Origin: Streptomyces albofaciens JCM 4342
GTDB lineage: Bacteria > Actinomycetota > Actinomycetes > Streptomycetales > Streptomycetaceae
Length of the DNA stretch: 64,000 nt
NCBI RefSeq assembly: GCF_008634025.1
Contig: NZ_PDCM01000002.1
Location: 4,195,501-4,259,500 of the forward strand
Direction: 5' to 3'
Shown: piece after piece, positions 15,915 through 41,952 of the stretch
Position numbering within the stretch: the stretch's first letter is position 1
Layout: each line of letters starts with the position of its first letter
Position numbers and translations under genes: made by a program
The notes under the pieces: generated by a model
Told to the model about the DNA's origin: nothing
The model's database searches: none
Seen by the model: the letters and a program-made list of their open reading frames with translations, nothing else

Positions 15915-15986
15915 GCCCGTCACCCGCTGGAACCATCCGTCACATCACCCGCCAGAACCAACCACCCGTCACATCACCCGCTGGAA
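15915..15986. repeat. 29-bp-period repeats running into the 3' end of the methyltransferase gene
   Basis: Copies of CCGTCACATCACCCGC plus a GAAC tail occur at about 15937-15957 and 15966-15986, with a shorter relative at 15915-15934. The right-hand copy includes the last codons of the leftward methyltransferase gene, so the 3' end of the gene has been partly copied into the gap. The rest of 15766-15968 has no gene. Confidence 0.6.
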
Positions 15987-16622
15987 CAGGTCCAAGCGGT
16001 ACGAGTTGCCGTGCCGGTGGCAGGTCCGGCCCTCGATCGGCCGCAGGTCCGCCCGGTCGCGGAAGACCTTGTGCACCCCGTGGCCGGTCACGATCTCCGG
16101 TGCGGCTTCCGTGGCAGGAGCGGTATCGGGCTCGTCGTGAACCCAGTGCGCCAGCAGTACGTGCCCGCCCGGCCCAAGCAGGGCGGCAATCCGCGCAGCG
16201 GTCAGGCCGAGGTCGGGGGCCGACAGGTAATAGCCGACCTCGGACATCACGATGAGGTCCACCGGGGCCACCGCCAAGGAGGCCGGCAGGCTGCCGGCGT
16301 CCAGTTCTTCGGGGACGCGGAGGGTGGCGAAGGTGAGGTGGGGCAGGTCGGCGCAGTTCTGGCGGGCCTGTTCGACCGCGGCGGTGGAGCAGTCGGTGGC
16401 CAGCAGGTGGTCGCAGTGGGGTGCCAGCAGCCGGGTGAGGGCGCCGACGCCGCAGCCGATCTCCAGGGCGGAGCGGAAGCGGCCGGCGGGCAGCAGGGAC
16501 GCCGTGTCGGCGAATTTCTCCTGCTCGTACGGCTTGTGGAGGGTTCCCCACGGGTCGGTCCTGGACCGGTAGGCCTTGTCGAAGTGCTCAGCCGACACCG
16601 ATGTGCGGGGGCTGCCCGGCAT
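15969..16622 (-). CDS. NodS-like SAM-dependent methyltransferase
   Basis: A 217-residue class I methyltransferase: ALEIGCGVGALTRLLAP is the SAM-binding motif I, LATDCSTAAVEQAR motif II and DLIVMSEVGYYLS motif IV/post-I. The start FDKAYRSRTDPWGTLHKPYEQEKF matches NodS-type enzymes, which in rhizobia N-methylate a deacetylated glucosamine. Here it is last in a leftward operon glycosyltransferase - GNAT - PIG-L deacetylase - methyltransferase; its ATG lies inside the 3' end of the PIG-L gene (35-base overlap). That context supports N-methylation of an amino sugar or of an amine on the cluster product; the substrate is inferred. Confidence 0.8.
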   Translation of the reverse strand: MPGSPRTSVSAEHFDKAYRSRTDPWGTLHKPYEQEKFADTASLLPAGRFRSALEIGCGVGALTRLLAPHCDHLLATDCSTAAVEQARQNCADLPHLTFATLRVPEELDAGSLPASLAVAPVDLIVMSEVGYYLSAPDLGLTAARIAALLGPGGHVLLAHWVHDEPDTAPATEAAPEIVTGHGVHKVFRDRADLRPIEGRTCHRHGNSYRLDLFQRVM

Positions 16623-17391
16623 GACGGTTCCCTTCTGCGTTGTCGTGGGTGGCGGGGCCCAGTTCCCAGATGAGTTCCGCCTGGAGCGGGCCCGGCCGCC
16701 GCAGGAACGGCCCGTGGCCGACCGCCACCGGCGCCAGCTGCGAGGTGTAGCTCAGGACCGCCGCCCGCTTCGCCGCCCATTCGCGTTCGTCCAGGCGGAT
16801 GTCGTGGGCCACGCGCAGCTCGTACGCGGCGGACAGGTCGCGGTAGGCGCCGCCGTACTTGTCCGAGCCGGCCAGCCGCTCGACCGCCGCGTCCGTGCCC
16901 CATTTACGGGCGCCGCCGGTGTACGGCAGATCCGCGTATACGTACGGAGCCAGGCCCGGGCGCCCGGCCAGCACCGCGAGGGCCTGGTCCCGTACGGCGG
17001 TGTGGTCGGGCTGGTTCGTGCCGAGGGGGACCAGCACCCTGGTGTCCGGGGGGAGGCCCTTCAAAAAGCCCTCAAGTCCATCGAGTTCGCCGTCCGTACG
17101 GTACGGGCTGTCCGGGTTCGGGAGGGTCACCTGCTCGGCGCCCAGCAGCTTGCAGGCCCGGGCGTCCTCGGCCAGGCGTACGCGGTACGCCTCCTCCGGC
17201 GTGGCGAAGCCGCAGCCCGCGTCCCACCAGGAGATCCGGTCCGCCGCCGGGGCGCCGCCGTGGACGGTGACCACGGCGGTGGGCCCGGCGGTGCGGCCGA
17301 GGTATCCGGCGACGGACAGCGCGGCGTCGTCGAAGTGCGGGGAGAGGACGACGGTGGTCCAGCGCGGGCCGTGGTCGGCTGCGGTGCTCAC
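16588..17391 (-). CDS. PIG-L family deacetylase
   Basis: A 267-residue protein with the zinc-site motif VVLSPHFDDAALSVAG (usual A-H-P-D-D replaced by P-H-F-D-D), VTVHGGAP and the second metal/catalytic segment TNQPDHTAVRDQAL. PIG-L enzymes remove the N-acetyl group from GlcNAc-type substrates (mycothiol pathway, teicoplanin sugars). The GTG at 17391 overlaps the GNAT stop (GTGA) and the 3' end overlaps the NodS-like gene. Together with the neighbouring glycosyltransferase this indicates attachment and deacetylation of an N-acetylated sugar. Confidence 0.85.
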   Translation of the reverse strand: MSTAADHGPRWTTVVLSPHFDDAALSVAGYLGRTAGPTAVVTVHGGAPAADRISWWDAGCGFATPEEAYRVRLAEDARACKLLGAEQVTLPNPDSPYRTDGELDGLEGFLKGLPPDTRVLVPLGTNQPDHTAVRDQALAVLAGRPGLAPYVYADLPYTGGARKWGTDAAVERLAGSDKYGGAYRDLSAAYELRVAHDIRLDEREWAAKRAAVLSYTSQLAPVAVGHGPFLRRPGPLQAELIWELGPATHDNAEGNRHAGQPPHIGVG

Positions 17392-18098
17392 GGCTGCGCG
17401 GGCTGACCGGCAGACTGACCGGCGGCCTCCCCGGCAGCGCGGACCGAGGCCAGCAGCAGTCCCGCCGACGTCTTGCCGGTGGGGCTGGTGATGTACTCGG
17501 CGAGCAGGCGGCGCGCCTCGGCCTTGTCGGCTTCGGGGATGGTGTCGGGGAGGACGAAGGTCGGGTCGGTGCGCTTGAGTTCCTCGACCGCCGCGTAGTA
17601 CTCGTGCCGCAGCAGGCCCCATACGGCGCCGTCGTGGTGGCGGCCGTCGAGGTAGAAGTACTCGCGCAGGATGCCTTCGAGGGTGAAGCCGACGCCGGTC
17701 ACCAGGCGCATCACGTTCTTGTTGTAGAGCGCGGTGGTGAACGTCACCCGGTGGGCGTTGCGCGCGTGGAAGAGGTGGTCGATGAGCAGGTCGAACGCCT
17801 CGGCGCCGAACCCGCGGCGCCACAGTTCGGGGTCGCCGATCGCGCCGCCGAGCACATAGCCGCCGACCGGGCCTTGTGCCTTGTAGTGCACCGCGCCCAC
17901 GGTCCGGTCCTCGCCGTCGCGCACCGCGAACTGCCGCAGGCCGCCGCTGTGGTCGAGCTTGCGGAAGTCCTCGGCGGTGACCACGTCCCCTTCGGTGGCG
18001 GCCATCACCGCGGCGGCCGAGTCGGGGCCGAACCACTGCGCCATCAGCTCGTAGTCCTGGTCGGCGGGGCGTTCGAGCCGGACGAGTTTGCCCTGCAT
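17388..18098 (-). CDS. GNAT family N-acyltransferase (RimJ/RimL-like)
   Basis: A 236-residue protein whose first about 180 residues are a GNAT fold: GKLVRLERPADQDYELM, then AIGDPELWRRGFGAEAFDLLIDHLF (acyl-CoA/pantetheine-binding R-G-x-G-x-A type loop) and HRVTFTTALYNKNVMRLVTGVGF, typical of RimJ-like N-acetyltransferases. A helical C-terminal extension of about 55 residues follows. In goadvionin biosynthesis a GNAT joins the acyl chain to the peptide N-terminus (as I recall the literature), so this is the best candidate for the lipid-peptide coupling step; alternatively it acylates the amine freed by the adjacent PIG-L deacetylase. GGAGAACTG precedes the ATG. Confidence 0.8.
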   Translation of the reverse strand: MQGKLVRLERPADQDYELMAQWFGPDSAAAVMAATEGDVVTAEDFRKLDHSGGLRQFAVRDGEDRTVGAVHYKAQGPVGGYVLGGAIGDPELWRRGFGAEAFDLLIDHLFHARNAHRVTFTTALYNKNVMRLVTGVGFTLEGILREYFYLDGRHHDGAVWGLLRHEYYAAVEELKRTDPTFVLPDTIPEADKAEARRLLAEYITSPTGKTSAGLLLASVRAAGEAAGQSAGQPAQP

Positions 18099-18172
18099 CA
18101 GTTCTCCGTTCCGGTCCCGAGCGAGGACCGTGGTCGCGATGTTGTCGGTCGGTGCTGTGGTGGTGGGCCCGG

Positions 18173-19372
18173 TCAGCCCGTCCGGACGGCGGTGGGCACG
18201 GGTTCGGCGCCGGCCGTCAGGGCCTCGATGCGGTCGGCGGCCGCCGCCGCTCCCCCGGCCCCGCGCACCTCTTCCCGCATCCGGGTGACCGCGGCCCGGA
18301 TGCCGCCGTCGGTCATGACGCGGGTCAGGGCCGTGCGCAGCGTGTCCGCGTCCAGGTGGTCGCGGTCCAGGCGCACGCCGAGGCCGAGGGCGTCGATGCG
18401 TTCGGCGACGGCGGTCTGTTCCTGGGTCTGCGGTACGGCCACCATGGGCGTGCCGTGCAGCAATGCCTCCATGGTGGAGCCCATGCCGGCGTGGGTGACG
18501 AAGGCGTCGGCGTGGCGCAGCACGTCGAGCTGGGGGACGTGCGGGTGCGCCTCGACGTGGGCGGGGAGCGGGCCGATGGCGGCGCGGTCCATGCGCGGCC
18601 CGTACGCCATGACGACCTGCCAGGGCAGCGTTGCGACCGCCTCGCCGCACATGCGGAAGAACTCGGGCCAGTCGTAGCAGGCCGTGCCGAGGGCGATCAG
18701 CAGCACCGGGCGGCCGTCCCCGGCCGGGCGCCAGCTGCCCTGGAAGCCGCGGTCGCCGGCGCACGGGCCGACGAAGGCGAACCGGTCGTCGAAGGTCTCG
18801 CCGTGGTACTGGAACGCGCGCGGCAGGAAGACCAGGCGCAGATCCTCGGTGTGGCCGAGGAAGTCGGTGACCGAGCGGCCGGACAGGCCGTGGGCGGCCA
18901 GGAACCGGGTCAGCTCCCGGGCGAAGCGCAGCACGCCGGGGTGCAGCGGGTTGTCGGCCAGGAACTCGGCCTCCAGCGAGAAGTGCTCGTTGGAGACGAA
19001 CGAGGGCCACATCTCAGCCGCCGGCAGCCGCCATTTCGCGGCGAGCACCCGGCCCGCCCAGGCGATCCCGTCGTACGCGATGGTGTCGGGCCGGTCGGTG
19101 GCCCAGGCGTCCTCCAGTACGTCCAGCGTCGCCCTGGCCTCGCGCAGGAAGTCCATGGGGGAGATGGCCAGGCCGTCCTCGGTGAGCGCGTCGTCCACCG
19201 GGTTGCGGTAGACGACCGGTTCGGCGCCCACGGCCCGTACGGCGGGCGCGAACGCCTCGGTGACCGCGTACGAGACCCGGTGGCCGCGCCGGACGAGTTC
19301 CGCGACGAGGCCGAGCGTCGGGTTCACATGACCGTGCCAGGCGATGGAGACGAAGCCGATGTGGCGCGGCAT
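18173..19372 (-). CDS. MGT-type glycosyltransferase (GT1 family)
   Basis: A 399-residue GT-B glycosyltransferase. N-terminus MPRHIGFVSIAWHGHVNPTL is the acceptor-domain start; the C-terminal nucleotide-sugar motif reads FVTHAGMGSTMEALLHGTPMVAVPQ with TQEQTAVAERI behind it, the standard pattern of macrolide-type glycosyltransferases. It heads the leftward operon with GNAT, PIG-L and NodS-like genes. No sugar-nucleotide biosynthesis genes are in the window, so a common donor such as UDP-GlcNAc is the simplest guess. The ATG at 19372 has GGGGGAGGG in front; an upstream in-frame start at 19414 would add 14 residues and lies inside the promoter region, so it is less likely. Confidence 0.85.
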   Translation of the reverse strand: MPRHIGFVSIAWHGHVNPTLGLVAELVRRGHRVSYAVTEAFAPAVRAVGAEPVVYRNPVDDALTEDGLAISPMDFLREARATLDVLEDAWATDRPDTIAYDGIAWAGRVLAAKWRLPAAEMWPSFVSNEHFSLEAEFLADNPLHPGVLRFARELTRFLAAHGLSGRSVTDFLGHTEDLRLVFLPRAFQYHGETFDDRFAFVGPCAGDRGFQGSWRPAGDGRPVLLIALGTACYDWPEFFRMCGEAVATLPWQVVMAYGPRMDRAAIGPLPAHVEAHPHVPQLDVLRHADAFVTHAGMGSTMEALLHGTPMVAVPQTQEQTAVAERIDALGLGVRLDRDHLDADTLRTALTRVMTDGGIRAAVTRMREEVRGAGGAAAAADRIEALTAGAEPVPTAVRTG

Positions 19373-19407: not shown

Positions 19408-19455
19408 TTGACAAAATATGACTACAGATTCAGCATATTCGACAACTCATGACTG
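19408..19455. promoter_or_regulatory. Two direct copies of a putative cluster operator
   Basis: TTGACAAAATATGACTA (19408-19424) and TCGACAACTCATGACTG (19439-19455) are direct repeats starting 31 bases apart, about three helical turns. They lie between the leftward glycosyltransferase operon and the rightward 19480 gene. Related elements occur at the other cluster promoters (29825-29841, 29924-29939, 38335-38350, 39629-39646). The gap is strikingly AT-rich for this genome. Confidence 0.55.
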
Positions 19456-19479
19456 GCGGTAGAGGGGTGGCGCGGCCGG

Positions 19480-20265
19480 ATGACGACAGCGGAGACGGAC
19501 CGGCCGGACGCGCGGCCCGACGGCGGCCGACAGCCGGATGACGACGCCGTACGCCGCGGATCCGAACGCCACGGATCCGAACGCCACGGATCCGAACGTC
19601 ACGACGCAGTACGCCATGACGCCGTACACCACGGATCCGAACGTCACGACGCAGTACGCCATGACGCCGTACGCCACGGATCCGTACGTCACGACGCCGC
19701 AAGTCACGACGCCGTACGTCACGCATCCGTACGTCACGGAATCGCTCTCGCGGCCACCGACGGCCGACAACTGGCCGACGCGACGGCCGAGTTCGGCGCA
19801 CCCGGCCTCACCGCCGCCCCGGAAGCGCACACCAAGCCCGTTGACGCGGTCACCTGGGCGCTGCGTACCGCGTTCGAGGCCCTGCCCGAGGCCGTACGGT
19901 CGACCGCCCCGCTGTACGTCCTGTGCGGCGCGTACAGCTCCTGGGCCGCCCGGCACTTCGTAGGGCGCTGCCACGACACCGGGCGGCGGCTGCGGCCCTC
20001 GGACTCGATCGGCCTGGAGACCTCCGAGCTGGTCCGCCCCTACACCACCGCGTCCGGACACCGCGGGGGCTGCTACCTGCTCGCTCCCCTGCCGGTGGAC
20101 ACACGGGAACCGAAGCGGGCCACGGACCCGCCGCGCCCGCCCTGGCCCCTGGCCGCCATGCCGGGACCGGCCGTCCACCTGGACCTTTTCGTCTCCCCCT
20201 GCGAAGGACCGCGCCCGGTGCACTGCCTCGCCATCGCCACCGCCTGGAGCGTCACATGCCCGTGA
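19480..20265 (+). CDS. Protein with Arg-His pentad repeats and a ketosynthase-like C-terminal domain, unknown function
   Basis: A 261-residue protein of unrecognised family. Residues 25-89 are thirteen tandem 5-residue units beginning with Arg-His or a close variant (RHGSE, RHDAV, HHGSE, RHGSV), coded by 15-bp repeats. After this comes a globular part with WALRTAFEALPEAVRST, LYVLCGAYSSWAARHFV and DSIGLETSELVRPYTTASG, faintly like the N-terminal half of small ketosynthase-related proteins, without a catalytic Cys-His-His set. It overlaps the following ketosynthase gene by 10 bases, so it may be a structural or chain-length partner of that enzyme. The His-rich repeat could bind metal. Function not known. 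Confidence 0.6.
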   Translation: MTTAETDRPDARPDGGRQPDDDAVRRGSERHGSERHGSERHDAVRHDAVHHGSERHDAVRHDAVRHGSVRHDAASHDAVRHASVRHGIALAATDGRQLADATAEFGAPGLTAAPEAHTKPVDAVTWALRTAFEALPEAVRSTAPLYVLCGAYSSWAARHFVGRCHDTGRRLRPSDSIGLETSELVRPYTTASGHRGGCYLLAPLPVDTREPKRATDPPRPPWPLAAMPGPAVHLDLFVSPCEGPRPVHCLAIATAWSVTCP

Positions 20266-21416
20266 AGGACCCGGTCAACGACATCGTCATCAGCGGCCTC
20301 GGGCTGGTCACCCCGTTCGGTGCGGGCGTCGCGCCCTTCTGGCGGGGGCTGCTCGAAGGGCGCTCGGCCCTGCGTCCGGCCGGGCGCTTCGAGGCGCCGT
20401 CGTACCGGGGCGAGCCGGTCGGCGAGGTGCCCGGACCGGGCCCGGCGGCCGGGACGCCGCGCAAGAGCGCCTACGCGCGAGCCGCGATCGGGGAGGCCGT
20501 GGAGGCCGCCGGGCTGCCGGGAGTGCCGCGCGACGCCCTGGTGATCCTGGTCGGGCAGGCACCGTACCCGGGCCCGGAAACCGTCGCGGACGCTGCCTCG
20601 GACCCCGCCGCCCACCGGGAGTTCCTCGGTCCCGACCCGGCCGGCGCCCTCGGCCCCGCCTTCGCCCCGGGCCGCGTCCTGCACCTCTCCCACGCCTGTG
20701 CCTCCGCCGTCTTCGCGGTCGGCTTCGCCCGCGAGGCCCTGCGTGCGGGCGTCGCGCCGCTCGCCGTGGTGGCGGGCTCGTCGGTGCTCAACCGGTACGA
20801 GTACGCCAGCATGGACGTCGTACGGGCCGTGGGCCGGGAAGCGGCCAGGCCGTTCGACACCGGCCGGGCGGGCATCTCGCTCGGTGAGGGCGGGGGCGCC
20901 GTCGTCCTGGAGCCGGCCGGGCACGCCAGGGCGCGGGGGCACGCCACGGATCTGGTGGTCGCCGGTGCGGCGTGCCGGGTGGCCGGGGCCAAGGCCGCCG
21001 CGTCGGACGCCGAGCTGATCGCCGGGTGCATGCGCGACGCGCTGGCGGACGCCGGGGCGGACCGGCTGGACCATGTGCACGCGCACGCGACCGGCACCGT
21101 CCAGGGCGACGCCGCCGAACTCGCGGCCGTGGAGTCCATCGCCGCCGAAACCGGTTCCGACGCGCTCCCCGTGACCTCGCACAAGGGCGCCATCGGCCAC
21201 CTGCTGCACATCTCGGGCGCCCCGGCGCTGGCCGCCGCCGCGCTGACGCTGCGTACGGGGACCGTCCCGCCGACCGCCGGACTGACGGCCGCCGAGGGCA
21301 CGGACCGCGTGGTGCTGCCGACGGCGCCTCTGCGGCTGCCGTCGGCCCGTACCGCCGCCGTGAACAGCTTCGGCTTCGGCGGCAACAACGCGACGCTGGT
21401 CCTGCGCGGGGTCTGA
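20256..21416 (+). CDS. Beta-ketoacyl synthase (compact KAS II-like)
   Basis: A 386-residue condensing enzyme: VISGLGLVTPFGAGV start, nucleophile C148 in LSHACASAVF, first His in HAHATGTVQGD, second in TSHKGAIGHLLHISGA and the closing NSFGFGGNNATLVL. The Cys-His-His triad is complete, so it should be catalytically active rather than a chain-length factor. It is shorter than typical KAS II and the residues before the nucleophile (SHA instead of TxA) are unusual. Cotranscribed with the Arg-His repeat protein, which may be its partner. Likely extends or primes the acyl chain in the cluster. A strong hairpin follows at 21430-21490. Confidence 0.85.
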   Translation: MPVKDPVNDIVISGLGLVTPFGAGVAPFWRGLLEGRSALRPAGRFEAPSYRGEPVGEVPGPGPAAGTPRKSAYARAAIGEAVEAAGLPGVPRDALVILVGQAPYPGPETVADAASDPAAHREFLGPDPAGALGPAFAPGRVLHLSHACASAVFAVGFAREALRAGVAPLAVVAGSSVLNRYEYASMDVVRAVGREAARPFDTGRAGISLGEGGGAVVLEPAGHARARGHATDLVVAGAACRVAGAKAAASDAELIAGCMRDALADAGADRLDHVHAHATGTVQGDAAELAAVESIAAETGSDALPVTSHKGAIGHLLHISGAPALAAAALTLRTGTVPPTAGLTAAEGTDRVVLPTAPLRLPSARTAAVNSFGFGGNNATLVLRGV

Positions 21417-21429
21417 GGGGCCCTGAAAG

Positions 21430-21539: not shown

Positions 21540-23009
21540 TCAGTCCCCCAGCCCCACCTGCGCCCGCAGCGCCCGCGCGTCCACCTTCCCGTTCGCCGAC
21601 AGCGGGAAGCTCTCCACCACATGGACCGCGTTGGGCTGCTCGTACTCCGCCAGATGCACGGCCAGCCGACGCCGCCACTCGGCAGGCGCGGCGACCTCGG
21701 GATCCGCCACCACGAAGTGCAGTGCGCTGCCGCGCCGGCTGTCCTCCACCGCCAGCACCTTCACCTGCCGCCCGGCCGCCTCGGCCTTGCGTTCCAGGCT
21801 CTCCGGGTAGAGCGTGAAGCCCAGCCGGTGCACCGCCTGGTTGCGGCCGACCACGTGCAGGTTGCCCGCCTCGTCGAAGCGGCCGAGGTCTGCGGTCGGG
21901 TACCAGGTCGTGTGCCGTACGGGCGTGAGCGTGCCGTCCTCCAGGAGGTAGCCCTCCATCAGGCCCGGCGAGTCCACCTCGATCTCGCCCAGCTCGCCGG
22001 GCGCGGCCTCCCGGCCGTCCGGGGTGACCACCCGTATCCGTACGCCGGGCAGCGGCCGGCCGCAGCCGGTCGGCGCGTCGGGCGTGGCCAGCGCGACGTT
22101 GCCCAGCTCGCTGAGGCCGTAGCCGTCCAGCAGCGGGCGGCCCATGACGGCCGGGAACGCTTCGGCGAGCGGGGCGGGCAGCGGGGCGCCGCCCACGCCC
22201 CAGATCCGCACCCCGGCGAGTGCCTCGCGCAGCTCCGGGCGGCGGCGGACGACGCCGAGCAGGGAGTGGTACGTGGACGGGGCGGCGTCCACGGCCGTGA
22301 CGCCGTGGGCCGCGGCCTGGCCGACGGCGAGGTCCAGCCGCTGGTACGGGGTGACGATCAGGGTGCAGCGGGCCAGCCACCACAGCAGGACGACGGACAG
22401 GCCGTACTGGTGGGAGAAGGGCAGCAGCGGGGCGAGCACGTCGTCCGCGCGGTAGCCCATGGCCTGGATGGTGCGCAGCGTGTTGTCGTGCACCGCGGGG
22501 CCCGACTTCACGATGCCCTTGGGGCGGCCGGTGGTGCCGGAGGACCACAGCACCACGGCGTCCGGGCGGGCGAGCCAAGCGGTGAGGTCGACCTCGCCGG
22601 GCGGGGGCGCGGTGTCCGCGCCGAGGCCGGGGTAGCGGAGCACCCGGTCGGCGGGGAAGGCGGGACCGGCGATGCCATCGGTGCCGTGGGTGCCGTCGGT
22701 GTTGTCGGTGCCGTCGGTGAGCAGCCAGCGGGCGCGGGCCTGGCGGGCGGTCGCCCGGCCGTCGGCGGCGGACTGGCGGTGGTCGACCGGGACGAGCGAG
22801 GTGTCCAGGTGCATCAGGGCGAGCAGCGCCACGACGTAGTCGACGCAGTTGTCACCCTTGACCAGGACCCGGTCACCGGGGCATATGCCGCGGTCGCGCA
22901 GGACCCGGGCGGCGGCCAGCACCCGGCCGGTCAGGTCCGGTCCGGACAGGCCGTCGGACGCGCCGACGAGCCGGGGGGCGGGGACGGGGGGCGCCATCGT
23001 TTCGGTCAT
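21540..23009 (-). CDS. Acyl-AMP ligase (adenylate-forming enzyme)
   Basis: A 489-residue member of the ANL superfamily: LWSSGTTGRPKGIVKS (A3 P-loop), VDAAPSTYHSLLG, DGYGLSELGNVALATP (A5), WYPTADLGRFDEAGN (A7) and NGKVDARALRAQ with the catalytic Lys (A10). It lacks carrier and condensation domains, so it activates a free acid to an acyl-adenylate and passes it to CoA or to the cluster ACP. Last gene of the operon that carries the LanKC, precursor, reductase, ureohydrolase and dehydratase genes. A guanidinobutyrate- or aminobutyrate-type starter is an attractive substrate given those neighbours. The ATG at 23009 has GGAG upstream; an ATG at 23027 is possible. Confidence 0.87.
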   Translation of the reverse strand: MTETMAPPVPAPRLVGASDGLSGPDLTGRVLAAARVLRDRGICPGDRVLVKGDNCVDYVVALLALMHLDTSLVPVDHRQSAADGRATARQARARWLLTDGTDNTDGTHGTDGIAGPAFPADRVLRYPGLGADTAPPPGEVDLTAWLARPDAVVLWSSGTTGRPKGIVKSGPAVHDNTLRTIQAMGYRADDVLAPLLPFSHQYGLSVVLLWWLARCTLIVTPYQRLDLAVGQAAAHGVTAVDAAPSTYHSLLGVVRRRPELREALAGVRIWGVGGAPLPAPLAEAFPAVMGRPLLDGYGLSELGNVALATPDAPTGCGRPLPGVRIRVVTPDGREAAPGELGEIEVDSPGLMEGYLLEDGTLTPVRHTTWYPTADLGRFDEAGNLHVVGRNQAVHRLGFTLYPESLERKAEAAGRQVKVLAVEDSRRGSALHFVVADPEVAAPAEWRRRLAVHLAEYEQPNAVHVVESFPLSANGKVDARALRAQVGLGD

Positions 23010-25549: not shown

Positions 25550-25636
25550 TCAGCAGTGGCTGCTGACGGTGCTGGAGACGCGCGCGGCCTCCTCGGCGGG
25601 GACCTCAAGGCCCTGCAGGTCGAGAACGATCGACAT
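25550..25636 (-). CDS. Class III lanthipeptide precursor peptide (LanA), lipolanthine-like
   Basis: A 28-residue peptide starting MSIVLDLQGLEVPAEE. LDLQ at residues 5-8 is the hydrophobic leader-helix motif recognised by class III LanKC enzymes. It ends SSTVSSHC (residues 21-28): S22-x-x-S25-x-x-C28 is the S-x2-S-x2-C pattern that forms labionin, or avionin if the terminal Cys is decarboxylated, and Cys is the final residue. GGAGAGGAGGAAACACC precedes the ATG, a very strong ribosome binding site. It lies 67 bases after the LanKC gene and before a terminator-like hairpin. The eight-residue Ser/Cys end matches the size of lipolanthine core peptides as I recall them. The exact cleavage site is not visible; Pro13 is a possible processing point. 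Confidence 0.88.
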   Translation of the reverse strand: MSIVLDLQGLEVPAEEAARVSSTVSSHC

Positions 25637-35259: not shown

Positions 35260-36978
35260 TCATTCGTCCTCACGCAACGGGAAGTCTCCGGCGGGTCCGG
35301 CCATCCCGGGCGGGCTGTCGGCGAGCCGGACCCCGACCTCCACCACCGCGGCGGTTCCCGACGCGCAGTGCTGCCACGCGGCGGAAAGGACGCGGTCGAG
35401 ATCGTCGGGGTTGTCAGCGCGCCAGTACTTCAGGCCGTACGCGGCCGCCAGGCCTTCGTTGCCGGTGGGCCGGTCGGCGGTGAACGCGAAGCGCGAGCCG
35501 CTGCCGGACACCCGGTCGAGGTTGGTCTGGAGCCAGCCGTACCCGCCGTTGTCGAGCACGACGTACAGCACCCCGGCGCCCGCGTCGGCGAGCGTGGGCA
35601 GTTCGCTGCGGAAGAGGTTGAAGGCGCCGTCGCCGGCCACCGAGACGACGGGGCGCCCCGGCTCGGCCAGGGCCACGCCCAGCGCGGCGGCCGCGCCGAA
35701 ACCCAGCGGGGTCTGCTCGCTCGGCACGACCGAGCCGCCGCGCGCGCCGCAGGTCCAGTGCGGGTGGAAGTACGACCACATGTCCTGGAGACCGTTCTCC
35801 TGCACCAGGACGCGGTCTTCGGGGACGGCCCGGCCGAGGGCCGCGAGGACACGGCTGACCGGGACGCCGCCGCTCTCCTTCGCCGTACGGTCGGCCTGGT
35901 GGGCCCGTTCGTCGGCGCGCGCGGCGAGTGCCCGGCGCGCCTCGCTTATCCGGGCGGTCCAGGCGGCGTCCGGGGTGTGCCCGGCCAGCAGACCGGTCCA
36001 GGCGTGCACGGTGCGCTGTACGTCGCCCAGGACGCCGGCGCCGGGCCGGGCGGTCACCAGGCCGTCCTCACCGGTGACGACCTGGATCACCGGCAGCCGG
36101 TCCGCGTCCGGCCAGCCGAAGGTGGCGGTCTCCTCCAGGCGGCTGCCGAGCGCGATCACCAGGTCCGCCTCCTGCCACAGCCGGTCGGCCGGCGCGACGG
36201 TGTAGAGGCCGGAGACGCCGCAGAACAGCGGGTGGTCCTCGGCGACCGTGCCGCGCCCGGAGGCGGTGGTGAACAGGCCCGCGCCGAGGAGTTCGGCGAA
36301 CGCCTCCAGCGAGCGGTCCACGTTGCGGTGCCGGGCGCCGCCGCCGACGAGCAGGAGCGGGCGCCGGGCGGCGGCGATGCGGGCGGCGGCGTCGGTCAGG
36401 ACGTCGGGGTCGGGGGTGAGGCGCTGGGCCGCGGCCGGGCGCCAGGGGGCGGTGCGGGTGACCGGCTCGCCCGCGAGGTCCTCGGGTATCTCGACGTAGA
36501 CCGGTCCCGGGGTGCCGTTGACGGCGATGGCCACGGCCTGGTCGAGGGCCGCGGGGAGCCGGTCGGCGCGGTCCACCCGTACCGCCCACTTGACCAGCGG
36601 GCGGACGGCGGCCAGTTGGTCCAGCTCCTGGAACGCGCCGGTGCCCAGCCGGTCCAGCGGGGTGCCCCCGGCGATCAGGACGACCGGCGCGGCGGCGGAC
36701 CGGGCCTCCAGCACGCCGGTGAGGGTGTTGGTCAGGGCCGGGCCCTTGCCCACCGCGCAGATGCCGGGGCGCCCGGCGGCCAGCGCGTAACCGGTCGCCA
36801 TGAACACGGCGTTGCGCTGGTCGCGGCAGATGACGAAGCGGGTGTCGGTCTCCTCCAGCGCGCCCAGCAGGTCCATGTCGTCGCCGGGCAGGCCGAAGAC
36901 GGCCGTGGTGCCCAGGTGCCGCAGGTGGTCGGCGACCGCGTGCCAGGCCGTCGGGTAGGTGTGTGCGCGTTCGTTCAC
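35260..36978 (-). CDS. Thiamine-diphosphate-dependent enzyme, 2-oxo acid decarboxylase/acetolactate synthase-like
   Basis: A 572-residue three-domain ThDP enzyme. N-terminal PYR domain: TAVFGLPGDDMDLLGALE and ICRDQRNAVFMATGYALAAG; the catalytic Glu expected in H-E-x2-A appears as Asp (R-D-Q). Middle domain: RRPLLLVGGGARHRNVD. C-terminal PP domain: VVSVAGDGAFNLFRSELPTL and VVLDNGGYGW, the GDG-x(25-30)-N ThDP/Mg site. The family includes acetolactate synthases and AruI, which decarboxylates 2-ketoarginine. An aldehyde dehydrogenase gene overlaps its start (GTGA), matching a decarboxylase-dehydrogenase pair, so 2-oxo acid to aldehyde to acid is proposed. Confidence 0.8.
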   Translation of the reverse strand: MNERAHTYPTAWHAVADHLRHLGTTAVFGLPGDDMDLLGALEETDTRFVICRDQRNAVFMATGYALAAGRPGICAVGKGPALTNTLTGVLEARSAAAPVVLIAGGTPLDRLGTGAFQELDQLAAVRPLVKWAVRVDRADRLPAALDQAVAIAVNGTPGPVYVEIPEDLAGEPVTRTAPWRPAAAQRLTPDPDVLTDAAARIAAARRPLLLVGGGARHRNVDRSLEAFAELLGAGLFTTASGRGTVAEDHPLFCGVSGLYTVAPADRLWQEADLVIALGSRLEETATFGWPDADRLPVIQVVTGEDGLVTARPGAGVLGDVQRTVHAWTGLLAGHTPDAAWTARISEARRALAARADERAHQADRTAKESGGVPVSRVLAALGRAVPEDRVLVQENGLQDMWSYFHPHWTCGARGGSVVPSEQTPLGFGAAAALGVALAEPGRPVVSVAGDGAFNLFRSELPTLADAGAGVLYVVLDNGGYGWLQTNLDRVSGSGSRFAFTADRPTGNEGLAAAYGLKYWRADNPDDLDRVLSAAWQHCASGTAAVVEVGVRLADSPPGMAGPAGDFPLREDE

Positions 36979-38216
36979 CGGGGGGCCTTCGGGTAGTGCT
37001 CGGCGACGGCCTTGGAGATCAGGACGGGCTCCGCCCACAGCTCCTCGCCGTCGGTGATGTAGTTGGCCATCCGGCCGAAGCCGCCGAAGGGCGCGTTGCC
37101 GTCGTCGATGGACAGCAGGGTGGTGTCGAGGGTGACGGTGGTACGGCGGCGCAGCGCGGCGACCAGGTCCGGCGCTTCGCCGTACACGCTGGAGCCCAGG
37201 GCCCGTTCGGTGAACTGGCCGGTGGTCAGTGTGGCGGCGAGGGCCTGCTCGTCGCGGTAGCCGACGACGTTGAAGACCGGCGCGAAGAACTCCGGGACCT
37301 GGGTGCGCGGGGTCACCTCGTCGCCGACGACGACGGTGGGCTCCATCCGCCGGGTGCGGAAGTCGACATGGCCGCCGTAGGCGATCCGCTCGCGGTTGCG
37401 GGCCAGGAACTGGACCGCCTCCTCCAGCGCGCCGTCGTAGAAGACCGGCCCGAAGTCGGCGTCGGGGTCGGTGTACGGGCCGTAGCGCAGGCCCTTGAGT
37501 TCGCGGACGAGACCGTCGAGGAAGGCGTCGCGCAGGTCCTCGTGCACGCAGAACAGGTCCGGGCCCAGGCAGTCCTGGCCGGCGTTGTGGACGCGGATCT
37601 CCACGGCGTCGCGCACGGCGCGCTCCACGTCGGCGCCGGGGGCGACGACGAACGGGTTGACGCCGGAGCCGAGGAACAGGAAGAGCTGCCCCGGCCCGAG
37701 CTGGGCGCGGATCTGCTCGGCGTTGTGGTACGCCCCCGTGAACACCACCACGTCGGACGGCAGGACGTGGTCGCGGACGAACTCCCGCTGGCTGGCGACG
37801 GTCAGCTCGATGGGCAGCCGGTGGTGCTCGGCCAGCAGCCGGTGCAGGCGCGCCATCTGGTCCTTGACCTGGCTGGAGGGCCGGAAGACCAGGTGGTCGG
37901 CGTAGAGCGCGGGGACGAGCAGGTACAGCGCGTACGAGTAGAGGATCACGTTGGAGGGCATGAAGACGGCCAGCCGCGGGACCCGGCCCGGCCGGTAGGC
38001 GTCCACCTCGGCGAGCGCGCCGTCGAGCGTGGCGATGGTCGCCTCGATCTCGTATCCGGCGGCGCGGTGGGTGGATATCTCACACAGCAGGTCGTGCACG
38101 TCGCCGGGGTTGTCGGCCAGCAGGTCCCGCACCGCGCGCAGCGCCGCGAGACGCCGGGCGTCCGGGGTGCCCTCGGGCACGGTGGCCGTGGCGGGCAGGA
38201 CGGGAGCGGAGGTCAT
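36975..38216 (-). CDS. Aldehyde dehydrogenase family protein
   Basis: A 413-residue member of the aldehyde dehydrogenase superfamily, somewhat shorter than the usual 480. Catalytic C216 lies in HNAGQDCLGPD, preceded by FLGSGVNPFVVAPGADVE; VPEFFAPVFNVVGYRDE holds the E-x-F-x-P motif. The early cofactor part (RVPRLAVFMPSNVILYS) is reminiscent of CoA-acylating or acyl-reducing members, so oxidation of an aldehyde to acid or to acyl-CoA are both possible. It is coupled to the ThDP enzyme downstream and its ATG overlaps the stop of a 24-residue leader frame. Confidence 0.8.
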   Translation of the reverse strand: MTSAPVLPATATVPEGTPDARRLAALRAVRDLLADNPGDVHDLLCEISTHRAAGYEIEATIATLDGALAEVDAYRPGRVPRLAVFMPSNVILYSYALYLLVPALYADHLVFRPSSQVKDQMARLHRLLAEHHRLPIELTVASQREFVRDHVLPSDVVVFTGAYHNAEQIRAQLGPGQLFLFLGSGVNPFVVAPGADVERAVRDAVEIRVHNAGQDCLGPDLFCVHEDLRDAFLDGLVRELKGLRYGPYTDPDADFGPVFYDGALEEAVQFLARNRERIAYGGHVDFRTRRMEPTVVVGDEVTPRTQVPEFFAPVFNVVGYRDEQALAATLTTGQFTERALGSSVYGEAPDLVAALRRRTTVTLDTTLLSIDDGNAPFGGFGRMANYITDGEELWAEPVLISKAVAEHYPKAPR

Positions 38217-38334: not shown

Positions 38335-38350
38335 TGTCATTGTTTGTCAA
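38335..38350 (-). promoter_or_regulatory. Putative cluster operator upstream of the leader ORF/aldehyde dehydrogenase operon
   Basis: Minus strand TTGACAAACAATGACA (38350 to 38335) fits the TTGACA-N3-5-ATGAC(T/A) element seen at other cluster promoters. It lies 48 bases upstream of the leader ORF and overlaps the stop codon of the second MFS gene; CATGACTG occurs just beyond it on the same strand. Confidence 0.5.
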
Positions 38351-39623
38351 GTTCAGTCATGGCCGGTGATGGAGGGGCGTGGGCGCGGTCACCGGCGGCG
38401 TCCCGGTCGATCTCGCGCAGCGCCGGGGCGGCCCAGCAGCAGACCACCACCAGCAGGTACACCCCGGCGATCAGACCGATCGCCGGGCGCAGACCGAGGG
38501 CGCCGACGGCGGCGACGGTCAGCGAGGCGCCGAGCGGCACCGCCGCGAGGCCGACCGTGTCGACCGCAGCCGTCACCCGCCCGTACTGCTCGCGCGGCAC
38601 ACTGCGCTGGAGCACCCCCGTACGCAGCGGGCCCACCGGCGCCGCCACCGCGCCGAGCACGGCGAGCAGCGCCGCGCCGACCGGCAGCGGGGGCAGCGAG
38701 ACCAACGCCAAGATCAGGAGGCCCGCGGCGAGGCCGGTGCCGATGTAGAGGAACCGCCCGCCGACCCGGTGGCCGAAGACGGCGTAGCCGACCGTGCCCG
38801 CCACCGCGCCCAGGCCGAAGGAGGTGAGCAGGACGCCCAGGCTCGCCGCGCTGCCCAGGTGCTGGTACGCGTACGTCACCAGGACCACCCCCGCCAGACC
38901 GCTGTCCAGGGCGTTGAAGGCGGTGCCGGAGACGGCGACGGCCCGCAGCAGGCGGTGGCGGCGCAGTGTGCGCAGCCCGGAGCGCAGGTCGGCGAGGTAG
39001 GCGCCGGCCGGGCGCCGCTCGGTCGCCCGCCGGCCGGCCCGGATGCAGACGAGGATCAAGAGCGCCGCGAGGCCGCAGGCGACGGCGTCCAGGAGCAGCA
39101 CACTCTGGGTGCCGAGCAACGCGACCCCCGCGCCGCCCAGCGGGGGCCCGCACAGCTGGGCGACCTGGTGGATGCCGGTGAGCAGCGCGTTGCCGCGCTC
39201 CAGCGGCATGCCCGCGGCCTCGCTCAGCTCCGGCACCAGGCCGGTGACGGCCGCGCCGCCGGGGACGTCGAGGGCGTTGGCGGCCACCACCAGGAGGGCG
39301 AGGGTGGGGAAGTCGAGTGCGTCCAGGGCGTACAGCAGCGGAATGCAGGCCGCGCCGAGGCCGCCGACCAGGTAGGCGACCACCGCCATCGTCCGGAAGC
39401 CCCAGCGGTCGACCAGGGGACCCGCCGCGAAACCGACCACCCCGGAGGTGACGGCCCCGATCGCGACCACGATCCCGGTCTGGGCCACGCTGCCGGTCGT
39501 CCTCATCACGAACCAGGGGACGGCGACGACCATCATGGCCTCGCCGAGCGAGCTGACCGCCACGGCGCCCAGCAGGGCATGGATTCCCCACCGGCGGCGT
39601 CGTGGAAATCCCAGGCTTGTCAT
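38337..39623 (-). CDS. MFS transporter (enterobactin/macrolide efflux-like)
   Basis: A 428-residue permease with about 12 transmembrane segments. It begins MTSLGFPRRRRWGIHALLGA, followed by SLGEAMMVVAVPWFVMRTTGSVAQ and AAGPLVDRWGFRTMAVVAYL (loop 2-3 signature), as in the MFS_3/EntS-like exporters. Divergent from the XRE-TPR regulator gene; likely a second exporter or self-resistance pump for the cluster product. TAGTGT ends 8 bases before the ATG at 39623 and no good ribosome binding site is present, so the mRNA may be leaderless; an ATG at 39641 is an alternative start. Confidence 0.85.
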   Translation of the reverse strand: MTSLGFPRRRRWGIHALLGAVAVSSLGEAMMVVAVPWFVMRTTGSVAQTGIVVAIGAVTSGVVGFAAGPLVDRWGFRTMAVVAYLVGGLGAACIPLLYALDALDFPTLALLVVAANALDVPGGAAVTGLVPELSEAAGMPLERGNALLTGIHQVAQLCGPPLGGAGVALLGTQSVLLLDAVACGLAALLILVCIRAGRRATERRPAGAYLADLRSGLRTLRRHRLLRAVAVSGTAFNALDSGLAGVVLVTYAYQHLGSAASLGVLLTSFGLGAVAGTVGYAVFGHRVGGRFLYIGTGLAAGLLILALVSLPPLPVGAALLAVLGAVAAPVGPLRTGVLQRSVPREQYGRVTAAVDTVGLAAVPLGASLTVAAVGALGLRPAIGLIAGVYLLVVVCCWAAPALREIDRDAAGDRAHAPPSPAMTELDKQ

Positions 39624-39628
39624 ATGAA

Positions 39629-39808: not shown

Positions 39809-41080
39809 TTGACGATCGAACAGCCAGCGTTCGGAGAACGCGTCCGGGAGATCCGTCGCGCCCAGGGCCTGTCCCAGGGGGACCTCGCCGGCGACGGCGT
39901 CTCCCCCAGCTACGTCTCGTTGGTGGAGAGCGGCCGCCGCAGCCCCAGCACCAAAGCGGCCAAGGCCATCGCCGAGCGCCTCGGCATGTCCCTCGAAGAG
40001 CTGTCCGCGCCCCGGCCCGCGGACCGCGAGCGCACCCACCGCCTGGAGCTCGTCGGGCAGCTCGTCGCCGCGCGCGCGAGCCAGGCCGCCGGTGACTGGC
40101 CCGCCGCCCGGCGGCAGCTGGAGGCCGTCGCCGAGCGGGCCGCCGACAACGACCTCGACGAGGTGCGCTGGGAGGCCCGCTGGGAGCTGGCCACCGTCCT
40201 CGACCACCTCGGCGCCGCCGCCGACCGCGAGCGCGTCCTGCGCACCCTGCTCGACGACCCGCTCACCGCCGCCGCGCCGCTGCTGCGCTCCCAGGTCGCC
40301 GCCGAACTCTCCCAGCTGCACCGGCGGCAGGGCCGCCTGGCCGAGGCGGTGCGCCGCGCCGAGGACGCCCAGAGCGCCGCGGCGGACGTCGAGGCCGCCC
40401 GCCCCGCCCGGGTGCAGGCACAGGTGGCGCTGCTCTCGGCGTACGTGGAAAGCGGCGAGTGGCACCGCGCGCAGGGGCTCGCCGACACCCTGCTGGACGA
40501 GGCACCGCCCGCCGGTGCCCCGCGCCTTCGCGCGACCGCCCTGTGGGCCGCCGCGGGCGCGCGCTACCTGGACGGCCGGGCGGACGCCGCCCACGAGCTG
40601 CTGACCGAGGCCGACGAACTGCTCACGGCCACCGACGACGTACGGCAGCGCACCCGGCTGGCCCGCGCCCGTACGCTGCTGGCCCTCGCCTGCGACACCC
40701 CCGGCGCCGACGCCCTGCTGGAGCGCGTCCGCCAGGCCGCGGCGCTGCTCGCCACACCGGAGACGCTGAGCTGGCTCGCGGCGCTGGAGGCCTTGGACGC
40801 GCTGCGCACCTCCGACCGGGAGCGCGCCCGGGAGCGGGCCGGGACCATTCCCGTGGACTCCCCGGCGCTGCCCGCCCTGGACCAGGCCCGCTGCGTCCTC
40901 GTCCGGGCCCGCGCCCAGCGTGCCGCCGGGCGCGAGGAGGCCGCCGAGGCGGACTTCCGCACCGCGGCCTCCGGCTACGAGGCCGCCGGTGCGTACCGGC
41001 TGGCGATGGCGACCTGGCGCGAGCTGAGCGACCCCGGCCACCTCACCGGACCCGACCCGCACCTGGTCCTGATGCCGTAG
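39809..41080 (+). CDS. XRE-family regulator with TPR-like C-terminal domain
   Basis: A 423-residue protein. Residues 7-68 form a helix-turn-helix (FGERVREIRRAQGLSQGDLA, then VSPSYVSLVESGRRSPSTKA). The remainder is Ala-rich paired helices, typical of TPR sensor domains in RRNPP-like or Streptomyces pathway regulators that respond to a small molecule or peptide. TTG start with GAGGAACAGC upstream. It is divergent from the MFS exporter and is the prime candidate to bind the shared cluster operator. Confidence 0.85.
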   Translation: MTIEQPAFGERVREIRRAQGLSQGDLAGDGVSPSYVSLVESGRRSPSTKAAKAIAERLGMSLEELSAPRPADRERTHRLELVGQLVAARASQAAGDWPAARRQLEAVAERAADNDLDEVRWEARWELATVLDHLGAAADRERVLRTLLDDPLTAAAPLLRSQVAAELSQLHRRQGRLAEAVRRAEDAQSAAADVEAARPARVQAQVALLSAYVESGEWHRAQGLADTLLDEAPPAGAPRLRATALWAAAGARYLDGRADAAHELLTEADELLTATDDVRQRTRLARARTLLALACDTPGADALLERVRQAAALLATPETLSWLAALEALDALRTSDRERARERAGTIPVDSPALPALDQARCVLVRARAQRAAGREEAAEADFRTAASGYEAAGAYRLAMATWRELSDPGHLTGPDPHLVLMP

Positions 41081-41088
41081 GGGCGCGT

Positions 41089-41138
41089 GCGCCGTCCGGG
41101 CGCCGGCCGGTGCGTCCGGCCCGGCACCCGGACGGCGC
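41089..41138. terminator. Hairpin between converging XRE-TPR and PPTase-like genes
   Basis: Arms of 12 bases (41089-41100 and 41127-41138) match exactly and enclose a GC-rich 26-base loop. Placement between converging genes fits a shared terminator. Confidence 0.6.
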
Positions 41139-41151
41139 GCGTGCCCGGCCG

Positions 41152-41952
41152 TCACGGCGCCACCGGCACCGGACACCGCACCCGCCACACGACGGCCTCG
41201 CTCACGGGATACGAGGCCGCGACGGAAGCGGCGGTCTCCGGATCGGTGGGCAGGTCCTGTACGTACGCGACGCCACCGGTGCCCGGGATGCCGGTCTCGG
41301 GCACCGGTATCGCGCCCTCCGGCCCCGCGCCCAGGGCGTCCACCTCGGCGGCGAGCGCCAGCCCGCCGCGGCCGGTGAGCCGCAGCGCCGCTTCCTTGCG
41401 CGTCCACCACTGGGTCAGCAGCGCCGCGCGGTGGGCGGCCGGGGCCGCTTCGGCACGGGCCCGCTCGGCGGCGCTGAAGGGCAGCCAGGCCCAGGCGTCC
41501 AGGGACGACGGCACGCTGGACACGCTCAGCGCCACCGAGGCCCCGCGGGCGCAGGCGATCAGCAGTCTTCCTTCGTCACGGCAGACCGTCAGGTCCAGCG
41601 GCCCGGCCGACAGCCGCGACCTGCCGAAGCCGTCACGAGTCGTGCGCACTTCGCACGGTGAGCAGTCCAGCAGCCAGGCCACCAGGGCGTGCAGACGCCC
41701 CGGCCACAGTCCGCACGGACAGGAGCCGGCCGCGTCGGTGAACCCGTCGTCGCCCGGCCGTGCGCACCCTCGCGCGCAGTCCGCCGCCTCGTCCAGGACC
41801 GAGAAGACATGTATCTGTCCCTCGGATATGGCGGAGGCGCTTCCCGGTTCCCAGCGCGCGCCGCGCAGCCCCGGTCCCCAGGGGGCTTCCGGACCACCCT
41901 CCGGACACAGCAGACCGGACCCGGAAACGCTCCCCCGAAATGTTGCTTGCAA
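41152..41952 (-). CDS. 4'-phosphopantetheinyl transferase-like protein with altered metal site
   Basis: About 266 residues. DGFGRSRLSAGPLDLTVCRDEG and WLPFSAAERARAEAAPAAHRA with TQWWTRKEAALRLTGRGG match the Sfp-type family, including the W-x-x-K-E-A motif. The partner motif G-x-D-x-E, which supplies two Mg ligands, appears here as VALSVSSV, so both acids seem lost. It may be inactive, use other ligands or have another role; an intact enzyme elsewhere could prime the ACP. The start is uncertain: the longest frame begins at a TTG at 41952 and the N-terminal part is Cys/Gly-rich and poorly conserved in look. Confidence 0.6.
   Translation of the reverse strand: MQATFRGSVSGSGLLCPEGGPEAPWGPGLRGARWEPGSASAISEGQIHVFSVLDEAADCARGCARPGDDGFTDAAGSCPCGLWPGRLHALVAWLLDCSPCEVRTTRDGFGRSRLSAGPLDLTVCRDEGRLLIACARGASVALSVSSVPSSLDAWAWLPFSAAERARAEAAPAAHRAALLTQWWTRKEAALRLTGRGGLALAAEVDALGAGPEGAIPVPETGIPGTGGVAYVQDLPTDPETAASVAASYPVSEAVVWRVRCPVPVAP

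Follow-up and report, generated by a model that had tools for sequence, protein, structure and literature searches.

A Streptomyces gene cluster predicted to make an N-terminally acylated class III lanthipeptide related to the solabiomycins

When the gene for a class III lanthionine synthetase (LanKC) lies among genes for fatty acid synthesis, the question arises whether the two kinds of gene serve one product, and which product this would be. Such a case is found in a stretch of 64 kb from Streptomyces albofaciens JCM 4342 (G000:C2:4195501-4259500, in a genome of 9.25 Mb and two contigs), here called the window. From the letters of the window alone, an original prediction had proposed a lipolanthine-like cluster that joins a class III lanthipeptide to fatty-acid-type genes. 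We arrive at a probability of about 0.72 for the reading that there is a single cluster here, and that it would direct the synthesis of a class III lanthipeptide that carries an acyl group at its N-terminus and is related, as a labionin-type compound, to the solabiomycins. That the product is an N-acylated class III octapeptide is well supported, and very probably it is a small ribosomal ring peptide, capped by a long, positively charged fatty chain and more decorated than the solabiomycin or goadvionin kind. Acylated lanthipeptides are few, and some of them inhibit Gram-positive bacteria.

The peptide part is considered first. The predicted 28-residue precursor, MSIVLDLQGLEVPAEEAARVSSTVSSHC, is found at its place in the window with AGGAGG in front of the start (coordinates of all genes are collected in Table 1). 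A regular expression for leader plus core, composed after the fact, matches a single place in the window, and no match occurs in 30 mononucleotide shuffles of it. The precursor is conserved at the same position in four relatives, being identical in S. rimosus and 75-82% identical in the other three. Its core, SSTVSSHC, has the eight-residue form xSTxSxxC of the solabiomycin type, and it joins, as in the lipolanthines, a single Cys and a Ser-x2-Ser-x2-Cys C-terminus to an adjoining class III LanKC. The three domains foreseen for this enzyme are borne out by RamC_N, kinase-like and LanC-like matches, by a score of 993 bits against the NCBIfam LanKC model (cut-off 575) and by a kinase motif DLHPAN, and the LanKC gene does overlap the gene of a FabF-type ketosynthase (KS1) by four bases. 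Acyl-chain genes and a GNAT-type N-acyltransferase complete the lipolanthine-like set. The window does not fit the SapB/AmfS-like type, which has a two-ring precursor, LLxC motifs and no acyl genes, nor the selidamides, where the side chain of Lys or Orn is acylated, as the core SSTVSSHC has neither Lys nor Arg. Among plasmids, 80 PLSDB records match the LanKC, all at less than 60% identity, and the best among the matches listed reaches 46.5%.

The extent of the cluster can be judged from its relatives. Nine LanKC loci came out of a scan over 84,980 species genomes, and in the four closest the gene order around LanKC is repeated. When the core of the synteny is taken as the 20 genes from an aldehyde-dehydrogenase-like (ALDH-like) protein to a methyltransferase, 20 of them occur in S. 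rimosus NRRL WC-3904 (L008), 19 each in S. virginiae ISP-5094 (L010) and S. sp. NRRL F-2664 (L011), and 16 in S. composti SBST2-5 (L009). The other five loci share LanKC alone, to which two Umezawaea loci add an acyl carrier protein (ACP) and a ketosynthase at 39-53% identity. The methyltransferase and a PIG-L deacetylase are syntenic in L008, L010 and L011, and in these three the left edge of the synteny lies just past the methyltransferase, which agrees with the predicted span of 15969 to about 41952. The predicted right edge, with a helix-turn-helix (HTH) regulator and a phosphopantetheinyl transferase (PPTase), is matched in one relative, S. virginiae L093, where an exporter of the major facilitator superfamily (MFS exporter 2), the HTH regulator and the PPTase stand in the same order. 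Close copies are rare: a VinK-type acyltransferase, the GNAT and an R2lox-like di-iron protein occur at 86% identity or more in the same three of 392 sampled Streptomyces genomes. More distant members are probable, for among 21 LanKC entries with 53-78% identity (P0016-P0036), seven are accompanied by an R2lox-like match and one more by a match to an orphan open reading frame (ORF) of the cluster, the location on the same contig being inferred.

The partnership between LanKC, the GNAT and acyl genes is also seen outside this group. A search with the GNAT found 28 of 392 genomes at E <= 1e-15, and the contexts of the 12 best matches outside the window's own group were fetched, weaker ones being left. 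In 11 of these 12 non-orthologous loci a LanKC lies within 20 kb of the GNAT homologue, at a distance of a few genes in ten and of about 7 kb in L087, while in the twelfth, L086, the contig ends just past three precursors. Acyl-type genes are present in 11 of the 12: ten have homologues of the window's set, L087 has others (a ketosynthase III, a ketoreductase-like short-chain dehydrogenase/reductase and an AMP ligase with a carrier domain), and none was seen in the stretch of L083. Precursors that end in xSTxSxxC are found in all 17 loci formed by the window, its four relatives and the 12 fetched ones, in 15 by pattern and in L076 and L087 by reading. Positions 1-11687 of L087 make up an acylated-lanthipeptide-type locus of a different kind, with a LanKC, a LanD-like flavoprotein, an amidinotransferase-like protein, a GNAT and the core ASTASDGC.

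Consider, for comparison, LanKCs taken across the phylum. A scan of 396 genomes gave 10 genomes at E <= 1e-150, from which 11 stretches were taken (nine other genomes and the second copy of the window's own genome; L037 is shortened by a contig end). These contain only stray matches to the other genes of the cluster, such as an ALDH at 26% in L039, an MFS exporter 1 match at 35% in L044 and response regulators. Therefore, the acyl genes track a subset of LanKCs and not class III generally. The precursors, found in six of the 11 stretches, are SapB-like two-ring peptides. The idea that the cluster had arisen from a SapB-type one was considered and rejected. The second class III LanKC of the same genome (C1:2125894-2128509, with a LanC-like match at C1:2127781) stands among the SapB-like rows of the tree described below, and no precursor was found by pattern beside it in the stretch examined (L039, G000:C1:2117200-2137100). 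Two further LanC-like genes lie at C2:2173261 and C2:3460293.

Seven of the fetched loci, L076-L082, lead from the partnership to a known type of product. Identity to the window is 71-74% for a thiamine diphosphate (ThDP) enzyme, 76-80% for the ALDH-like protein, 51-54% for KS1, 44-47% for the GNAT and 46-48% for LanKC, and in the outer flanks of two of them (L088 with L077, L090 with L080) it is 72% for the AMP ligase, 55% for the dehydratase, 87% for FabI and 69-71% for ACP. All seven carry the precursor in three copies, with cores GST[VI]S[GT]GC. In a 2026 review (PMC13192320), solabiomycins A and B are printed as 1*-G-G^-2*-I/V-A^^-G-G-A^, where 1 is 13-guanidinotridecanoyl and 2 is dehydrobutyrine. 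The cores GSTISGGC (L077, L078, L082) and GSTVSGGC (L077, L080, L081, L082) fit this line, with the printed G^ falling at the Ser position of the precursor, so that the exact core of solabiomycin A, B or both is encoded by five of the seven loci, while L076 and L079 are one residue off (STGC). We infer that L076-L082 are solabiomycin or near-solabiomycin clusters.

The comparison also tells what is special about the window and what is not. It shares with these loci the xSTxSxxC core and the starter and acyl gene set: GNAT, KS1, the ALDH-like protein, a ThDP enzyme of Gln type and the HTH regulator in all seven and, where outer flanks were examined (two loci), FabI, dehydratase, ACP and AMP ligase. 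The stand-alone, type II acyl set, which had been thought to set the cluster apart from described members, is thus not what distinguishes it. The extra tailoring genes, the other half of that claim, do make a difference: the solabiomycin-like stretches have no matches to the ureohydrolase, macrolide-type glycosyltransferase, PIG-L deacetylase, methyltransferase, R2lox-like protein, cytochrome P450, VinK-type acyltransferase, or second ketosynthase (KS2) with its orphan ORF. Judged by gene content, this processing set is what is new here. Conversely, ABC-exporter-like genes seen in L077 are not in the window.

How would the acyl chain be started? The closest solved relatives of the ThDP enzyme are BbmA/CsmA, and when it is aligned to acetolactate synthase and BbmA, Gln54 falls at the position of their Glu. 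This conserved Glu activates ThDP. A search with the ALDH-like protein found 33 of 392 genomes at E <= 1e-50. Both proteins are present in 30 rows, corresponding to 29 distinct loci since L119 and L130 are the same place (L115, L116 and L120, with no ThDP enzyme in their short stretches, were left out), and here the Glu position holds Gln in 28 loci, His in one and Glu in none. The ALDH-like partner has its Cys (GQDC) in all 30 rows and Glu in none at what we take to be the position of the ELGG motif. The Glu-less pair (window 35260-38216) is conserved in several cluster types (L104-L114, L117-L119, L121-L123, L128). In 11 of 20 short loci examined, AMP ligase and ALDH form a single open frame, and KS1 adjoins the ThDP enzyme in L124-L127 and L129. 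L124 (5163-14468) has two ureohydrolases beside a ligase-ALDH fusion, a ThDP enzyme, a ketosynthase and an ACP, with no LanKC in the 20 kb examined, and is likely to be a guanidino-acyl cluster. From their shared neighbourhoods, we read ligase, ALDH, ThDP enzyme and ketosynthase as a starter module that is portable and tied to guanidino chemistry. The Glu-less pair looks like uncharacterised starter chemistry, which could explain the origin of omega-guanidino fatty acids; no precedent for a guanidino/ThDP starter was found in the open-licence literature.

That the module travels also feeds a rival reading, in which two clusters adjoin: LanKC and precursor would give a short unlipidated class III peptide, encircled by an unrelated cluster for a guanidino- or amino-lipid glycoside. 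In keeping with it, L140 (5516-15949) has the ALDH, ThDP enzyme, AMP ligase, KS2 and R2lox-like protein without a LanKC in 20 kb, L141 (2046-9951) has a part of this set (a ThDP fragment, KS2 and the R2lox-like protein), and ligase-ALDH-ThDP-KS1 cassettes stand without LanKC in the examined stretches of L124-L127 and L129. Against two clusters speak the four-base overlap between KS1 and LanKC, the repeated association of GNAT, LanKC and ketosynthase in divergent loci, and the acyl genes interleaved with LanKC and precursor in the window and its four closest relatives among the nine LanKC loci, which is not the unrelated neighbouring lipid cluster that the original prediction had named as its refutation. 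The solabiomycins provide a precedent as well (PMC13192320). We therefore regard two clusters as very improbable. By eye, L140 also has a family-2-like glycosyltransferase and an FAD oxygenase as neighbours.

The source of the guanidine follows from a similar comparison. The putative amidinotransferase-like protein of L087 matches PF02274 with an E value of 5.7e-5, at the cut-off. No homologue of it was found in the window, the relatives, the solabiomycin-like loci examined or, in a search run without a positive-control genome, the whole genome at E <= 0.001. A guanidine in the window's product would thus have to come in as part of the starter, and arginine would be its simplest source. The closest solved relatives of the ureohydrolase are proclavaminate amidinohydrolase, agmatinase and guanidinobutyrase.

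With one cluster as the preferred reading, the next question is whether the ring would be a labionin or an avionin. In a tree of 55 rows, six rows that include the window's LanKC form one clade (100/99), which is nested in a larger supported set (34 rows, 95/96) that also includes L083, L084, four Pseudonocardiaceae LanKCs and the protein P0066 of Streptomyces sp. TP-A0584, which we take to be the goadvionin producer. The window's LanKC does not, then, group solely with non-lipidated clusters, the other outcome by which the proposal was to fall; yet the set also holds two Pseudonocardiaceae loci (L012, L015) with multi-Cys precursors and no acyl-gene matches found. LanKC placement alone would not prove acylation.

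The avionin requires more than a LanKC. In microvionin it is formed with the Cys decarboxylase MicD, and no such enzyme was found in the window. A PF02441 search of the genome gave three matches, by eye two UbiX-like and one CoaBC-like, and with the LanD of L084 as query the whole genome gave CoaBC (33%, E 5.7e-14), one chance-level match and nothing else. The same LanD queries, which recover LanD in L083 and L084 as positive controls, found nothing in the window, in the stretches of L008-L011 or in six of the seven solabiomycin-like loci; in L081 there is a weak flavoprotein match. The flavoprotein beside the LanKC of L087, used as query, matches L083 and L084 only. Since no decarboxylase was found, a labionin-type acid as in the solabiomycins is expected rather than a true avionin, and of the earlier claim the lipid-capped, eight-residue class III lanthionine-type peptide is supported and the avionin is not. 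A true lipolanthine would still arise if a flavoprotein encoded outside the cluster, such as CoaBC, or another enzyme carried out the oxidative decarboxylation of the C-terminal Cys, to give an avionin as in nocaviogua or goadvionin. The 2/5/8 spacing with a C-terminal Cys, together with a class III LanKC, is common to the window and to microvionin, nocavionin and nocaviogua (Ala1-Avi2-Val3-Ser4-Avi5-Asp6-Gly7-Avi8), and the window's LanKC is nearest to a set that holds TP-A0584, L083 and L084, the last two with LanD. The labionin-type solabiomycin cores have the identical spacing, and no LanD homologue is seen in the 64 kb, the four relatives' stretches or the genome, apart from CoaBC and the two UbiX-like proteins, which makes the avionin distinctly improbable.

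The remaining comparisons are with the caps. Nocaviogua is described with a guanidino fatty acyl cap as proposed here, and 12 lipolanthines in three groups were counted before it. The window shares with the goadvionin type a LanKC in the same supported set and a GNAT-type acyltransferase. It has neither LanD nor type I polyketide synthase, both of which L084 carries, L083 carrying LanD. Goadvionins are reported to combine an avionin and a trimethylammonio C32 polyketide in an eight-residue peptide.

The function of the decorating genes is approached from the locus that lacks them. In the L009 stretch of S. composti the ureohydrolase, glycosyltransferase, PIG-L deacetylase and methyltransferase are missing, all four together. 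The joint absence suggests, from this single case, that the four make up one finishing set and that S. composti would retain the guanidine. The locus has a FabG-like reductase and two identical precursor gene copies (12685-12905) as extras; the gene after the GNAT looks by eye like an ABC ATPase, and the contig runs on for only about 2 kb past the GNAT. Such a locus makes it directly testable what the charged head group contributes to activity. The same four genes could also be read as self-protection, with intracellular glycosylation of the peptide and trimming as it is exported or afterwards. The glycosyltransferase belongs to the macrolide glycosyltransferase family and has weaker matches, below cut-off, to self-immunity and macrolide-inactivating models, and it is exactly these four genes that are jointly missing in S. 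composti. S. composti would then be unprotected, unless protection is encoded elsewhere in its genome, and the chemistry of a ureohydrolase is unsuited to protection, so that we hold this reading to be unlikely.

For the acylated labionin peptide that we prefer, a pathway can be written down in which each step is read from homology, on top of the gene content, synteny, motifs, precursor conservation and undetected LanD described above. AMP ligase, ALDH-like protein, ThDP enzyme and ACP would provide a guanidino-type starter, presumably derived from arginine. KS1, FabI and the HadA-like dehydratase, with FabG and FabD of the host, would lengthen it into a saturated chain of, by analogy, about C13, which the R2lox-like protein and the P450 may oxidise, while KS2, the orphan ORF and the VinK-type transferase may serve an extra acyl transfer or elongation. 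LanKC would phosphorylate and eliminate at Ser2, Thr3 and Ser5 of SSTVSSHC and join Ser2, Ser5 and Cys8 into labionin, so that Dhb3 remains, and with it, because no LanD was found, a free C-terminal acid. The leader would be cut off by an unclustered protease, as reported for microvionin (PMC10885120). The GNAT would couple the acyl-ACP to the new N-terminus, the ureohydrolase could take urea off the guanidine to leave an omega-amine, methyltransferase, glycosyltransferase and PIG-L deacetylase may decorate the product, and the MFS pumps would export it. The most specific version is tentative: a glycosylated omega-amino (or N-methylated) lipo-labionin peptide, whose head group is unmasked by the ureohydrolase after assembly, and whose starter is made by the Glu-less ThDP/ALDH pair with AMP ligase and FabF-type ketosynthase, as a cassette carried by at least three kinds of Streptomyces cluster. 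We know of no guanidine-to-amine switch in this compound family.

Several observations weigh against the acylated labionin peptide or parts of it. The acyl and tailoring set was not found in five of the nine LanKC loci, apart from the ACP and ketosynthase of two, and the dehydratase has no tblastn match in L010 and L011. The LanKCs of the seven solabiomycin-like loci form a clade of their own (100/100), apart from the window's, which is nearer to that of TP-A0584; as the acyl genes are nearer to the solabiomycin-like ones, the lipid and peptide parts have different closest relatives. An FAD protein that stands by the precursor gene in L077, a candidate sulfoxidase, is not in the window cluster, although a 48% homologue lies elsewhere in the genome. 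CoaBC or another enzyme could decarboxylate the Cys. Among the genes of the cluster, none was recognised as an arginine aminotransferase, and a C13 chain calls for a starter with an odd number of carbons, unlike a plain 4-guanidinobutyryl unit. A C4 guanidinobutyryl starter made through a 2-ketoarginine decarboxylase was considered and is held as no more than a possibility, because the match of the ThDP enzyme to the NCBIfam 5-guanidino-2-oxopentanoate decarboxylase is below cut-off (233 bits against 500), the conserved Glu is missing and C13 is odd.

If the proposal is right, the cluster pairs a LanKC nearest to that of the goadvionin producer with a solabiomycin-type acyl set, and adds genes for sugar, methyl and amine unmasking. 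A glycosylated labionin-containing lanthipeptide, reportedly NAI-112, has been described and is not known to be fatty-acylated; labionin and glycosylation would be common to both, and the acyl cap is proposed for the window only. Lanthipeptide clusters with polyketide or fatty-acid genes were already noted in a 2020 genome survey (PMC7268733). Searches of the open-licence literature yielded neither a report on this cluster nor one on any acylated lanthipeptide that is glycosylated or processed by a ureohydrolase; this is weak evidence, as subscription papers are largely outside that literature.

The genes are listed in Table 1, with starts picked by codon bias and names from Pfam, NCBIfam and PDB sequence searches. 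Profile searches recover every further gene that had been named beside the precursor, LanKC and KS1 (KS2, ACP, acyltransferase, dehydratase, FabI-type enoyl reductase, AMP ligase, GNAT, P450 and two MFS exporters), and the ureohydrolase, ThDP enzyme, ALDH-like protein, R2lox-like di-iron protein, glycosyltransferase, PIG-L deacetylase, NodS-like methyltransferase, likely PPTase (a weak match), HTH regulator and a 261-codon orphan ORF come in addition.

Table 1. Genes of the proposed cluster, by position in the window
Feature	Position	Strand	Basis
Class I SAM methyltransferase, NodS-like (proposed N-methyltransferase)	15969..16622	-	Pfam; NCBIfam NodS 63.5 bits, below cut-off 300
PIG-L family deacetylase	16588..17391	-	Pfam; PHFDD motif; start by codon bias
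GNAT, proposed acyl-ACP:peptide N-acyltransferase	17388..18098	-	Pfam; present in 5/5 syntenic loci
Macrolide-family glycosyltransferase (MGT)	18173..19372	-	TIGR01426 416 bits, cut-off 260
Orphan ORF, overlaps KS2	19480..20265	+	C-terminal part alone conserved; no Pfam match
Second ketosynthase KS2	20256..21416	+	Cys-His-His retained
Acyl-AMP ligase	21540..23009	-	PF00501; 72% to ligase of two solabiomycin-like loci
HadA-like (FAS1_DH) dehydratase	23037..23669	-	Pfam, NCBIfam
Agmatinase-family ureohydrolase, proposed omega-amine unmasking	23666..24691	-	TIGR01230 189 bits, cut-off 174; motifs GGDHT, DAHAD, SVDVDVVDP
FabI-type enoyl-ACP reductase	24693..25463	-	NF005908 392 bits; 87% to two solabiomycin-like loci
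Precursor peptide LanA, core SSTVSSHC	25550..25636	-	Reading frame, AGGAGG upstream, conservation
Class III lanthionine synthetase LanKC	25704..28334	-	RamC_N, kinase-like, LanC-like matches; NCBIfam
FabF-type ketosynthase KS1	28331..29674	-	Pfam, NCBIfam; 4-base overlap with LanKC
Ferritin-like di-iron protein, R2lox/RNR-small-subunit superfamily	29962..30924	+	Motifs DETRH, DESRH
Acyl carrier protein	31012..31257	+	Pfam, NCBIfam
Cytochrome P450	31341..32570	+	Haem-binding Cys in FGAGAHYCLG
MFS exporter 1	32656..34308	-	Pfam; C-terminal extension
VinK-like acyltransferase	34305..35207	-	PF21124; GQSFG; closest solved 5czc/5czd, E 2.6e-54
ThDP enzyme, acetolactate synthase superfamily	35260..36978	-	Gln54 at conserved Glu position
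ALDH-like protein	36975..38216	-	Cys216 kept; general-base Glu lost
MFS exporter 2	38337..39563	-	Start uncertain, frame opens to 39782; syntenic in S. virginiae L093
HTH regulator	39809..41080	+	Homologues flank solabiomycin-like loci
Probable 4'-phosphopantetheinyl transferase	41152..41952	-	WTRKEA motif; start uncertain

Some assignments need comment. The PPTase matches PF01648 at an E value of 0.0012, below cut-off, when a 227-codon version is used, while the full frame has no Pfam match; its WTRKEA motif is one that we take to belong to PPTases. The structures 5czc/5czd, listed in the PDB as malonyl transacylase, are presumably VinK. A reading of the P450 as a haem-less glycosyltransferase helper was rejected: its haem Cys is in place, and its score against the helper model falls short of the cut-off. 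Minus-strand frames at 19447-20223 and 20073-21479 were likewise rejected as genes, having no Pfam match and, by eye, the composition of a wrong frame, with KS2 and the orphan ORF on the plus strand there. The true start of the orphan ORF is probably internal, its S. rimosus homologues being 199 aa long. Its family has 12 entries, itself included, at E <= 0.001 among 5.8 billion proteins, and its structure model, with a mean pLDDT of 60, gives no Foldseek match at E <= 0.001, the top rows being weakly KS-like. A stretch of 58 of its residues recurs at 41% between ThDP enzyme and ALDH in the polyketide-like locus L119/L130, where a TcmI-like cyclase is also seen by eye.

Just past the cluster, at 43492-48300, lie a cytochrome oxidase subunit I, a LuxR-type response regulator and a protein with globin, FAD and NAD domains; the first two have no match in the approximately 6.7 kb beyond the PPTase of S. 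virginiae L093. Within the cluster, MFS exporter 1 has a C-terminal extra stretch of about 95 residues, in which two likely membrane helices are recognised by eye.

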